A stretch of DNA of 64,000 nucleotides from Weeksellaceae bacterium (GTDB taxonomy: Bacteria > Bacteroidota > Bacteroidia > Flavobacteriales > Weeksellaceae): the NCBI GenBank assembly GCA_022013695.1, contig JAKLPS010000006.1:1-64000 (forward strand), given 5' to 3'. The position numbers and the translations under genes were made by a program. Within the stretch, counting starts at the first letter, position 1; each line of letters begins with the position of its first letter. The notes under the pieces are model-generated. The model did no database searches. It was given only the letters and a program-made list of their open reading frames with translations, and was not told where the DNA came from. Below, piece by piece: positions 11,408-15,793 of this stretch.

Positions 11408-11415
11408 TATTTTTG
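11408..11415 (+). promoter_or_regulatory. -7 promoter box for the cysteate-synthase-like gene
   Basis: TATTTTTG fits TAnnTTTG and is followed by C, as in the extended consensus. It lies 32 nt before the ATG at 11448. No TTG is seen at -33 spacing. The 218-bp gap between this gene and the divergent GT117 gene holds nothing else I recognise. Confidence 0.5.
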
Positions 11416-11447: not shown

Positions 11448-12485
11448 ATGACGAATGTATACGATAATATTCTTGGTTTGATTGGCAACACCCCGTTGGT
11501 CAAATTGAATCACGTTACCAAGGACATTCCCGCGACAGTATACGCTAAGTTGGAGTCTTATAATCCAGGCCATTCTACGAAAGACAGAATCGCCCTTCAT
11601 ATCATAGAAAATGCAGAAAAAAGAGGCCTCATCAATCCCGATTCTGTGATTGTGGAGACCACCTCTGGCAACACCGGATTTTCTATCGCGATGGTTTGCA
11701 TCGTAAAGGGTTACAAATGCATCTTAGCCGTAAGTGATAAAACGAAAGCCGAAAAAATTGCTTATTTAAAAGCCTTGGGCGCCACAGTTTACGTTTGTCC
11801 GGCGGCGGTTGCGGCAGAAGATCCAAGATCTTATTATGAAGTGGCAAAGAAAATCGCAAGAGAAACGCCCAATTCCGTGTACATCAATCAATATTTTAAT
11901 GAGCTCAATATTGATGCGCATTATAAAACCACTGGACCCGAACTTTGGACGCAAACTGACGGCAAAATCACCCACGTTTTCGCTTGCACAGGCACCGGAG
12001 GAACTCTCTCGGGAACGGCAAAATATTTGAAAGAAAAAAATCCCAATATCAAAATCATAGGCGTCGATGCAGAAGGATCTATCCTGAAAACTTACCACGA
12101 AACTGGCAGAATCAATAAAACAGAAATCCATCCTTATCAAATCGAAGGTCTTGGGAAAAACTTGATTCCTGGAGCCATTTTGTTCGATAAAATCGACGAA
12201 TATGTACGCGTGAACGACGAGCTTTCCGCTTACCGAACCCGAGAAATCGCACTGAAAGAAGCCATAATGGGCGGCTATACCACTGGCGCAGTGACGCAAG
12301 CCTTGATTCAATATGCCAATTCCCACGAGTTCCAAGAGGACGATCTGGTGGTGCTCATCTTTCCGGATCACGGCTCGCGTTACATTACCAAAGTGTACAG
12401 CGACCAGTGGATGGCAGAGCAAGGCTTCGTCAACAATTGTTTTCACAATTACAATGAAATCTTCAAAACAGAAATTATCAAATAA
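11448..12485 (+). CDS. PLP-dependent cysteine-synthase-family enzyme, probable cysteate synthase
   Basis: 345 aa, fold type II PLP enzyme. NTPLVKL at residues 14-20, the PLP lysine Lys45 in STKDR, the substrate loop TSGNTG (72-77) and the phosphate cup TGTGGT (181-186) are all intact. It is longer than CysK/CysM at the C-terminus. The next gene encodes a serine-palmitoyltransferase-like enzyme. In sulfonolipid-making Bacteroidetes a CysK homologue (reported as CapA) makes L-cysteate from O-phosphoserine and sulfite, and an SPT homologue acylates it. The neighbourhood fits that pathway better than ordinary cysteine synthesis, for which no cysE or other sulfur assimilation genes are nearby. The enzyme class is certain; substrate is inference. 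Confidence 0.88.
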   Translation: MTNVYDNILGLIGNTPLVKLNHVTKDIPATVYAKLESYNPGHSTKDRIALHIIENAEKRGLINPDSVIVETTSGNTGFSIAMVCIVKGYKCILAVSDKTKAEKIAYLKALGATVYVCPAAVAAEDPRSYYEVAKKIARETPNSVYINQYFNELNIDAHYKTTGPELWTQTDGKITHVFACTGTGGTLSGTAKYLKEKNPNIKIIGVDAEGSILKTYHETGRINKTEIHPYQIEGLGKNLIPGAILFDKIDEYVRVNDELSAYRTREIALKEAIMGGYTTGAVTQALIQYANSHEFQEDDLVVLIFPDHGSRYITKVYSDQWMAEQGFVNNCFHNYNEIFKTEIIK

Positions 12486-12498
12486 TAATTCATATCAG

Positions 12499-12528
12499 AA
12501 AACCTTTTGGACAGACAAAAGGTTTTTT
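12499..12528 (+). terminator. rho-independent terminator
   Basis: AAAACCTTTTG (12499-12509) and CAAAAGGTTTT (12516-12526) form a perfect 11-bp stem with a 6-nt loop, running into T residues. It lies 14 bp after the stop of the cysteate-synthase-like gene and before the SPT-like gene, so it may act as an attenuator within the pair or separate two transcripts. Confidence 0.75.
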
Positions 12529-12559
12529 CAGTAAAATCTAAAAAATATCAGTTAGAAAA

Positions 12560-13831
12560 ATGGACATTTTTGAAAGAATAAAACAGAATCCGGGTCCGCT
12601 GGGTCAATTTGCAGATTATGCCGAAGGCTATTACATTTTCCCACGATTGGAAGGTCCTATCGGTCCGCGAATGAAGTTCCAAGGGAAGGACGTGATCTTC
12701 TGGAGCGCCAACGATTATTTGGGACTTTGCAATCATCCGGAAGTTCTGGAAGCCGATGCAAAAGCCGCCGCAGAATACGGAATGTTCTATCCGATGGGCG
12801 CCAGAGCAATGTCGGGCGAGACCGATCAGCATTTGCAATTGGAAAAAGAATTGGCAGAATTTGTCCAGAAAGAATCAGCATATCTATTGAATTTTGGTTA
12901 TCAGGGAATGGTCTCTTGCATTGATGCATTGGTTTCCAGAAATGATGTAATCGTTTATGACGTCGATTCTCACGCCTGCATCGTGGACGGCGTGCGACTG
13001 CACTCCGGAAAACGGTTTACTTACAAACATAACGATATCGAAAGTCTTGAGAAAAACCTAAAAAGAGCCAAAAAAGTAGCGGAAGAAACCGGAGGCGGAA
13101 TCTTGGTAATTACCGAAGGTGTTTTCGGGATGCGAGGTCAGCAGGGAAAACTGAAAGAAATCATAGCGCTTAAAGAACAATACGGATTCAGAATTTTGGT
13201 GGACGATGCACACGGATTTGGAACGCTGGGCGCCACCGGTGCTGGTACTGGCGAGGAGCAAGGCGTTCAGGACAAGATTGATGTTTACTTTTCTACTTTC
13301 GCAAAATCGATGGCCGGTTTCGGGGCTTTTCTTGCGGGAAATAAAGAAATTATCCGTTATCTGAAATTCAACATGAGATCGCAGATCTTTGCCAAATCTT
13401 TGACTATGCCAATGGTAATCGGCGGTTTGAAGAGATTAGAACTTTTGAGATCGAGACCCGAAATCAAAGCGAAACTTTGGGAAAATGTCGAAAAACTACA
13501 AGGCGGACTTAAGAAAATTGGCTACAATTTGGGCGACACCAATACCTGCGTCACGCCTATTTTCATCCAAGGAAGTCCGGTTGAAGCCATGCTTTTGGCC
13601 CGAGATCTTCGCGAAAACTATGGCATTTTCACATCAGTCGTTTGCTATCCTGTAATTCCAAAAGGAATGATCTTGTTAAGATTAATTCCAACCGCTTCTC
13701 ACACAGATGCTGAGATCAATGAAACTTTAACCGCCTTCGACGCGATCTATAAAAAATTAGGAACAGGCTATTATAAAGAATTGGAAGCGCAGCAGATTAA
13801 AGAGCAGAATCTAGCTTTTAAACCGATTTAA
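12560..13831 (+). CDS. alpha-oxoamine synthase family enzyme, probable cysteate fatty-acyltransferase (SPT-like)
   Basis: 423 aa, fold type I PLP enzyme of the serine palmitoyltransferase / KBL / AONS family. The sequence shows SANDYLGLCNHPEV (49-62), a stacking His138 in DVDSHAC, VDDAHGFG (214-221) and the PLP lysine Lys249 in FAKSM. Its N-terminus (YYIFPRLEGPIGPRM) and length differ from 2-amino-3-ketobutyrate ligase (about 397 aa). With the upstream cysteate-synthase-like gene it would decarboxylate and acylate cysteate to 3-ketocapnine, the sulfonolipid backbone (reported as CapB or SulA). An alternative is KBL acting with the threonine dehydrogenase at 27291, but that gene is 13 kb away. 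No TAnnTTTG box is seen in the 74-bp gap. Confidence 0.87.
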   Translation: MDIFERIKQNPGPLGQFADYAEGYYIFPRLEGPIGPRMKFQGKDVIFWSANDYLGLCNHPEVLEADAKAAAEYGMFYPMGARAMSGETDQHLQLEKELAEFVQKESAYLLNFGYQGMVSCIDALVSRNDVIVYDVDSHACIVDGVRLHSGKRFTYKHNDIESLEKNLKRAKKVAEETGGGILVITEGVFGMRGQQGKLKEIIALKEQYGFRILVDDAHGFGTLGATGAGTGEEQGVQDKIDVYFSTFAKSMAGFGAFLAGNKEIIRYLKFNMRSQIFAKSLTMPMVIGGLKRLELLRSRPEIKAKLWENVEKLQGGLKKIGYNLGDTNTCVTPIFIQGSPVEAMLLARDLRENYGIFTSVVCYPVIPKGMILLRLIPTASHTDAEINETLTAFDAIYKKLGTGYYKELEAQQIKEQNLAFKPI

Positions 13832-13849
13832 CTGCCTCACTTAGAACAG

Positions 13850-13885
13850 AAAACCTGTCAGGATTACAAATCTGGCAGGTTTTTT
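13850..13885. terminator. terminator between convergent genes
   Basis: AAAACCTGTCAG (13850-13861) pairs with CTGGCAGGTTTT (13872-13883) with one G-T pair and a 10-nt loop, then T residues on the + strand. The A-rich left arm lets it serve the convergent minus-strand gene ending at 13896 as well. Confidence 0.75.
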
Positions 13886-13895
13886 AGTTGATTTC

Positions 13896-15584
13896 TTAAC
13901 TTAAAATCAAAATCAGAAGACTGGCCACAAAAATCCTGAAAATAGTAACCAAAGGATAGACCTGGGCATAAGTTTGAATAGGAATATCACTGTCCAAGTA
14001 GTTGGTACTAAATGATAATGCTGCCGGATCGGTATAACTTCCGCTCAAAATACCTGCCAGTTGGAGGTAATTGATTTTCATAAAGAAATGTCCCACGATG
14101 ACTGCAATAATCAACGGAATAAAAGCAATCGCAGAGCCATAAAGCAAGAAAATCCAGCCATTGAATTTTATAAAATTTCCATAAAAATTCTCTCCCGCGT
14201 GGATTCCTACTGCTGCGAAAAACAAGCAAATTCCCAAGTCTTTCATAAAATAAACCGCACCATTATTAATATATGAATGGATAAAAGAAATGCCACCATA
14301 GCGGGAAATCAAAAGCGCGACAATCAAGGGTCCCGCAGCAAAACCAAGCTTGATGGGAATCGGCAGGCTCGGGATCACGATCGGAATAGAGCCCACAATG
14401 ATGCCCAGCAGCAATCCTCCGAAAAGGGAAAGAAAATCCGGCTCTTCCAACTTTTTCTCCTGATTTCCGATTATTTTCTCCACTTCCGCAATGCCTTCTT
14501 CCGAACCAATAATCCGAAGTTTGTCCCCATAAAAAAGCTCCAATGTTGGGCGGGGAACGATCTCTTTCCCCGCGCGGAAAACTCGGGTCACTTTGATATC
14601 GTAGGTATTGTACAGATCCAGCTCAACAAGTTTTTTGTGGATAGCGGACGGTTTTGTTACAAACAGATTTTTGGTGCAAAGATCAGATTCAGATTCTATA
14701 AAAAGATCGGTGGATATCCTGCCCGTTTCTTGGATAAAATGATCAACGTCTTTCTCTGTACCAACAATCATCAAGACATCTTTTTCGCGTAGCAGTACAT
14801 CTAAAGTGGGCGAATGGACAGCCTCCGAACCGCTGTTTTTGAGACGCGACACCACGATATTTCCGCCCATTTCTTTCAGTGTCTGGTGAATTGATTTCCC
14901 AAAGAAGTCAGGATTTGTAATTCTTACTTTTTTATGTATTAATGATTCCTCCGTATTGATTTTCAACAGGCGAAATTTCCGCATTTCGGATTCTGTATCG
15001 ATTTTCAGAAGCACTTTGGACAAAATAATGCTGGCGATAATTGCGAAAACACCCATTGGATAAGCAATGGCATAACCCACTGCTGGGTCATTAAAATGTT
15101 TTCCAGGGAAGCGCTGCGTCAGTTCCTCAATGGTATTTTTGGCCGCTCCCAGACCTGGCGTATTGGTAACGGATCCGCTCATAATGCCCACCAGATTTTC
15201 TATGCTCAAAGTGGTCGTTTTTGAAAGAATAAAAGTAATAAGCCCGCCCATCAGAACCACCGAAATCGCCAAAAGATTGAATTTGATTCCTTCTTTTTTG
15301 AAGGAGGAAAAAAAGGAAGGTCCCACTTGCAATCCGATTCCGTACACAAAAAGAATAAGCCCAAAATCTCTGATGAAATCGAGGATATCCGCATTGATTC
15401 TGTAGCCATAATGTCCCAAAATTAATCCGGTAAACATCACGGCGGAGACACCGAAAGTAATCTTCCCGAGCTTGAGTCTTCCAAAGAAGATTCCTGCGCC
15501 AATGACCAACATAATGGTCACAAGAGACTGTACCAAGCTGGGATTTTCCGCAGGAGAAAGCAATTTTATAAGCCAATCGAACAT
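13896..15584 (-). CDS. YidE/AspT-type putative antiporter with two RCK-C domains
   Basis: A 562-aa inner-membrane protein. About five hydrophobic segments (residues 10-190) are followed by two TrkA-C/RCK-C-like cytoplasmic domains (about 205-370, each with a GD-LRIIGS or EKDVLMIVG pattern) and a second set of about six membrane segments. Both membrane halves carry the family repeat with GSVTNTPGLGAA in the first and GSYTDPAALSF in the second. This is the aspartate:alanine exchanger (AspT/YidE/YbjL) family; the substrate is unknown. ATG at 15584 is chosen over an upstream TTG at 15611 because the family starts close to the first membrane segment. Stand-alone gene. Confidence 0.92.
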   Translation of the reverse strand: MFDWLIKLLSPAENPSLVQSLVTIMLVIGAGIFFGRLKLGKITFGVSAVMFTGLILGHYGYRINADILDFIRDFGLILFVYGIGLQVGPSFFSSFKKEGIKFNLLAISVVLMGGLITFILSKTTTLSIENLVGIMSGSVTNTPGLGAAKNTIEELTQRFPGKHFNDPAVGYAIAYPMGVFAIIASIILSKVLLKIDTESEMRKFRLLKINTEESLIHKKVRITNPDFFGKSIHQTLKEMGGNIVVSRLKNSGSEAVHSPTLDVLLREKDVLMIVGTEKDVDHFIQETGRISTDLFIESESDLCTKNLFVTKPSAIHKKLVELDLYNTYDIKVTRVFRAGKEIVPRPTLELFYGDKLRIIGSEEGIAEVEKIIGNQEKKLEEPDFLSLFGGLLLGIIVGSIPIVIPSLPIPIKLGFAAGPLIVALLISRYGGISFIHSYINNGAVYFMKDLGICLFFAAVGIHAGENFYGNFIKFNGWIFLLYGSAIAFIPLIIAVIVGHFFMKINYLQLAGILSGSYTDPAALSFSTNYLDSDIPIQTYAQVYPLVTIFRIFVASLLILILS

Positions 15585-15793
15585 TGCATTGAGTTTTGAA
15601 TTGAACCACAAAGTTACTGTAATTCAAGGCGTCATTTCAGAAATAATATATTGAAAGAAATCAGTATTGCGGCATTTTCTAATAAAATAATGAGCCGGGC
15701 GTGGAATACAGAGGCTAAAAAAAGAAAATTTTGTGCAGGAATTGGTCGAAGATAAGAAATAATTGATTTTAATGATAATTGTCCGTGGATAAT

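Follow-up and report, generated by a model that had tools for sequence, protein, structure and literature searches.

In a 64-kb stretch of DNA (hereafter the window) from a Weeksellaceae genome of the Epilithonimonas group (2.6 Mb, 33 contigs), we found two adjoining genes that very probably form a sulfonolipid (capnine) biosynthesis pair, a reading to which we assign a probability of about 0.93. The first gene, capA (11448-12485, forward strand), encodes P0001, a predicted cysteate synthase of PLP fold type II with 345 aa, which would convert phosphoserine and sulfite to cysteate. The second, capB, also termed sulA or cfat (12560-13831, forward strand), encodes P0002, a predicted cysteate C-acyltransferase of the PLP-dependent alpha-oxoamine synthase type with 423 aa, which would join cysteate to an acyl thioester to give 3-ketocapnine. 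The stop codon of capA and the start of capB are separated by 74 nt. A preliminary description had proposed adjoining cysteate-synthase-like and SPT-like genes as a sulfonolipid locus of the capnine type; both open reading frames lie on the forward strand and carry the Pfam domains PALP and Aminotran_1_2, and the proposal is supported by trees that place P0001 with CapA1 (99/99) and P0002 with SulA and the solved structure 28eh (100/99). The identity of the genes rests on phylogeny, active-site residues, a conserved neighbourhood and co-occurrence.

Among the matches listed, the closest named relative is Chryseobacterium sp. SC28 (97% identity for P0001 and 99% for P0002), and Epilithonimonas species, of the family Weeksellaceae, show 89-94% identity to P0001. 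The literature searched for Epilithonimonas with sulfonolipid contained no lipid report for the genus, and no assay was found there for the window's species. That sulfonolipids bear on gliding and host signalling is taken from the literature and not from the window's genome. Products of the pathway affect mouse macrophages and choanoflagellates, according to the available part of PMC11211663. On the reverse strand of the window, 13896-15611 encodes an Asp-Al_Ex permease with a TrkA_C domain, convergent with capB.

The best solved match of P0001 is 9k2p (436 bits), titled "The crystal structure of CapA1 from Capnocytophaga ochracea", and the second is a cystathionine beta-synthase (CBS) at 267 bits. 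In a tree of 56 rows chosen from a larger locus set, P0001 and CapA1 share a clade of 46 rows (99/99), while the CBS-like paralogue of the same genome, six other CBS-level rows, and CysK and CysM of E. coli, whose very long branches were flagged, fall outside. A row that adjoins a capB (L203, 55% identity) stands at the base of the CapA clade with weak support (84/33). This placement argues against P0001 being a cysteine synthase or CBS, with P0002 as the only sulfonolipid enzyme of the pair, a reading that we regard as improbable. Its closeness to CapA1 (56% identity) nevertheless appears only moderately above that to the CBS-like paralogue (49%), which would suit such a reading, and the structure comparison, used for entry titles and fold alone, does not separate the subfamilies (Z 37.7 for CapA versus 34.5 for CBS).

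The profile models bear on the same question. P0001 scores 548 bits with the CapA model, 374 with CBS and 264 with CysK, an order that speaks for CapA; on TIGR01136 (CysK/CysM) it reaches 287.6 bits, below the cut-off of 344. On NF053679, the NCBIfam equivalog for CapA, its 548 bits also stay below the cut-off of 600, a point in favour of the cysteine synthase or CBS reading, and the assignment to CapA is therefore made by phylogeny and not by the model. Below its cut-off, NF053679 rings in 14 of 14 control genomes, and it gives the CBS-like paralogue 431 bits. Among nine other CapAs scored, five pass (604-661 bits), namely C. ochracea CapA1 (631), three Flavobacteriaceae and a row of the Ap0902 type, while the four that fail (545-579), Chryseobacterium aquifrigidense included, all belong to the window's family. 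Because these window-family CapAs miss the cut-off while others pass, the cut-off seems to exclude the Chryseobacterium group, which is where the cysteate synthase was examined (C. gleum, in the available part of PMC11211663). The curated NCBI cut-off for CapA misses most of the same-family enzymes scored (four of five others, in addition to that of the window), and this shared low score counts against the cysteine synthase or CBS reading. That capA adjoins capB in 127 of the 143 family genomes with both genes, among the matches listed, likewise speaks against it, and by the models and the tree together we rejected both identities for P0001.

One further point on the side of that rival concerns cysteine supply. 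A genome-wide profile search found no protein of the window's genome above the TIGR01136 cut-off, and with only one other close fold-II relative present the genome might lack a cysteine synthase. Because of this result, CapA may have a side role in cysteine synthesis. Besides P0001, the genome encodes just one close enzyme of the CysK/CBS type, at G000:C18:32432-33403 (L083), and a cysteine synthase is not obvious. The preliminary description had also given P0001 an extended C-terminus, and relative to the CysK models the extension is real. Residues 315-328 align with CapA1, and the CBS-like paralogue of the same genome ends in a similar stretch; the last residues, 332-345, have pLDDT values below 50 and are variable in the alignment.

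For P0002, the best solved matches are 28eh (662 bits), named "Cysteate-C-fatty acyltransferase", and 7u7h (552 bits), which by its title is SulA of Alistipes finegoldii, followed at a distance by serine palmitoyltransferase (SPT, 234 bits) and 2-amino-3-ketobutyrate CoA ligase (KBL, 216 bits). The identities are 68% to 28eh and 59% to SulA, as compared to 33% each to SPT and E. coli Kbl. A maximum-likelihood tree was built from 53 rows chosen from a larger locus set. Fifty of them, P0002, SulA and 28eh included, form one clade (100/99) that excludes SPT and both KBLs; long branches were flagged for SPT and for the KBL of the window's own genome. Clustering with KBL, which the preliminary description had named as the outcome that would overturn its reading, was thus looked for in this tree, and P0002 was found with the cysteate acyltransferases.

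The active site points the same way. The available part of the SulA paper (PMC9304779) discusses Asn53, His140, Lys251, Lys281 and Arg376, of which Lys281 is proposed to distinguish SulA from SPT. P0002 has the same five residues at N51, H138, K249, K279 and R374, in a numbering that follows from a constant offset of 2, inferred from the alignment with SulA and the residue numbers in that part of the paper; none of the five varies across 24 family rows. At the position of Lys281, SPT has alanine and P0002 lysine. None of the neighbouring models reaches its cut-off with P0002: TIGR01822 (KBL) gives 254 bits against 493, NF047600 (serine palmitoyltransferase) 290.6 against 640, and glycine C-acetyltransferase, the best-scoring NCBIfam model, 294 against 460. 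The other alpha-oxoamine synthase found in the genome, on contig C18, passes the KBL model with 669 bits (cut-off 493). The structure comparison gives Z 45.7 for CapB and 43.2 for KBL and SPT, and the fold does not separate them. That P0002 could be a KBL, BioF or SPT, and the locus one for threonine, biotin or sphingolipids, deserves hardly any credence: the common fold, the 33% identity to KBL and SPT and the glycine C-acetyltransferase model on top would allow it, but the far higher identities to 28eh and SulA, the clade, the lysine in place of the alanine of SPT and the distinct true KBL in the genome stand against it, and all three identities were rejected by the models and trees.

The pair is conserved well beyond the window. 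We found CapB in 147 of 148 family genomes, the exception being G013 (80% complete), and, among the matches listed, CapA-grade matches (at least 64% identity) in 144 of 148. For this count the best CapA-grade place per genome was taken, and CBS-level rows (at most 53%) and three second CapB copies were left out. The genomes without a CapA-grade row are G005, G079 and G088 (76-81% complete) and G098. In G098 (99% complete), capA extends over two reading frames beside capB (L215:3904-4984), as a result of either a frameshift or a sequencing error. Both genes occur in 143 family genomes; by match coordinates, 127 of these have them on one strand and 20-204 nt apart, seven have about 0.9-1.0 kb between them with one SDR gene inside, and nine have them apart, pairs on different contigs included. 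Because 127 of 143 same-family genomes have the pair 20-204 nt apart, the adjacency of capA and capB is beyond chance. The pathway can be placed in nearly all sampled genomes of one bacterial family.

In a second set, the 80 best matches to CapA among named loci, CapB follows downstream in 62, in 61 of them after a gap of 57-242 nt and in the other after an SDR; 11 of the 18 without CapB downstream are titled Flavobacterium. Chryseobacterium flavum (L105, L148) and C. tagetis (L102, L106) have two CapA loci each, the second without capB in the surrounding sequence retrieved. In a sample of 118 genomes from the phylum, CapB is present in 42 and a CapA-grade match (at least 55%) in 14, all 14 of which also have CapB by a hand count, and none of the 76 genomes without CapB has a CapA-grade match. 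The other 28 of the 42 have CBS-level matches only; 14 of them belong to the class of the window, and the other 14 to a single family outside it, f21, in which the identity of CapB is 52-56%. CapB therefore occurs without a CapA of the window's type. A different source of cysteate has been described for CapB in Alistipes and Odoribacter, which use an archaeal-type cysteate synthase according to the available part of PMC10191378. A second CapB-like gene (61% identity, 409-412 aa) is present, in a similar setting, in three of the 21 genomes from the window's genus (L212:8252-9490, L213:8401-9639 and L214:8441-9670), and no CapA-like ORF start was seen among the ORFs listed around these copies.

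Between the two genes of the window lies a terminator-like hairpin predicted by folding (12497-12528, forward strand), with a 13-pair stem and a T-rich 3' arm. The fold of 12483-12559 has an energy of -15 kcal/mol (z -3.9), and none of 200 shuffles was as stable. Of 62 related gaps, that of the window and those of 61 named loci, 22 contain a hairpin by a strict definition (perfect stem followed by a T tail), as compared to 0.01 expected from shuffles; the species are themselves related, which means that the 22 hairpins are not independent. The consensus terminator scan does not list the hairpin at 12497-12528. Because of the hairpin between them, capA and capB may not be one transcript; the pair would be a conserved neighbourhood, possibly of two transcripts, or of one with an attenuator. 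Downstream of capB, the consensus scan marks a terminator-like site with a 15-pair stem and a T run (13848-13885, forward strand), which is weak alone, two such sites being present in the region and 3.2 expected. Upstream of capA, a motif match suggests a tentative promoter at 11408-11415 (forward strand), TATTTTTG, an instance of TANNTTTG, which we take to be the Bacteroidota -7-like promoter motif. The 35 nt upstream of this match contain no TTG. We also sought TANNTTTG upstream of capB in the window and did not find it there, and in a raw count by hand it occurs in 22 of the 62 capA-capB gaps.

From the above we infer a route to the lipid, in its substrates and products, its ketoreductase and its operation in this strain. 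In the first step, as in the rest of its family, CapA would make L-cysteate from O-phosphoserine and sulfite. In the second, a well-supported proposal in view of the residues and the clade, CapB would join a fatty acyl thioester, probably acyl-ACP, to cysteate in a condensation that releases CO2 and gives 3-ketocapnine. The ion of 3-ketocapnine is given as m/z 362.2 in PMC9304779 and, for positive mode, as 364.25 in PMC11211663. In the third, an unlinked KdsR-like SDR (G000:C32:8626-9417) would most likely reduce 3-ketocapnine to capnine, as the exclusion pattern and the model described below suggest, and in the fourth an N-acyltransferase would complete the sulfonolipid.

The evidence on the third step comes from seven genomes, belonging to two genera, in which an SDR gene separates capA from capB (three loci were read, and the seven were recognized by coordinates). 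Genus g18 includes "Flavobacteriaceae bacterium Ap0902" (L155, the same sequence as L066). The intervening SDR, P0003 (281 residues, read from the second codon), would correspond to CapC. The window's genome lacks a close copy of it; the best match there, at 31%, is the 264-aa SDR at G000:C32:8626-9417 (L084:1486-2280). The best NCBIfam model of the latter is 3-ketodihydrosphingosine reductase KdsR (228 bits, below the cut-off of 400), and its gene lies directly 3' of an ORF that, by eye, resembles aroA. Of the 148 family genomes, 140 carry this KdsR-like SDR (E 1e-60 or better); the eight without it are G031 (56% complete) and the seven with the intervening SDR, in which a laxer threshold yielded nothing better than the intervening SDR itself (32-35%). 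Across the 148 genomes, the candidate ketoreductase is thus an unlinked KdsR-like SDR in 140 and lies between capA and capB in seven; no genome has both and one has neither. This pattern covers two genera and represents one or two events, not 147 independent ones. We lean slightly towards the view that the family swapped its 3-ketocapnine reductase, with most lineages, including that of the window, using the unlinked KdsR-like SDR, two genera using the SDR between capA and capB, and none keeping both. Such mutually exclusive reductases present a testable choice for the third step. The pattern is in keeping with C. gleum, where three of 12 reductases tested were active, according to the available part of PMC11211663, which also mentions a CapC of Ornithobacterium; if the proposed swap is true, one physiological reductase would be singled out from those three. 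We predict that KCR1 of C. gleum is the orthologue of the KdsR-like SDR.

The locus is an orthologous copy of a pathway already described, and will be no surprise to a specialist. The capnine pathway of CapA, CapB and CapC reportedly goes back to Liu et al. in 2022. The window holds orthologues of CapA and CapB in the same order of steps. Seven family genomes have capA, an SDR and capB together, as in the CapA-CapB-CapC pathway given in the available parts of PMC10191378 and PMC11211663, whereas in the window no SDR lies between the two genes and the candidate ketoreductase is unlinked. SulA of A. finegoldii (PDB 7u7h) shares with P0002 its clade and the five active-site residues set out in the available part of PMC9304779, at 59% identity, whereas Alistipes, unlike the window, has an archaeal-type cysteate synthase in place of CapA (PMC10191378, in the part available). 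CapA1 of C. ochracea shares a clade with P0001 at 56% identity, but stands on a different branch of it, with the Flavobacteriaceae, and unlike P0001 exceeds the CapA cut-off. Earlier work on Cys and CFAT of C. gleum is said to be that of Hou et al. in 2022. These two enzymes were examined in C. gleum DSM 16776, where the reductases are not adjacent to cfat1 and Cys1, as in the window, according to the available part of PMC11211663. C. gleum belongs to the Chryseobacterium group, in which C. aquifrigidense (L112) has the two orthologues side by side, at 85-86% identity to those of the window.
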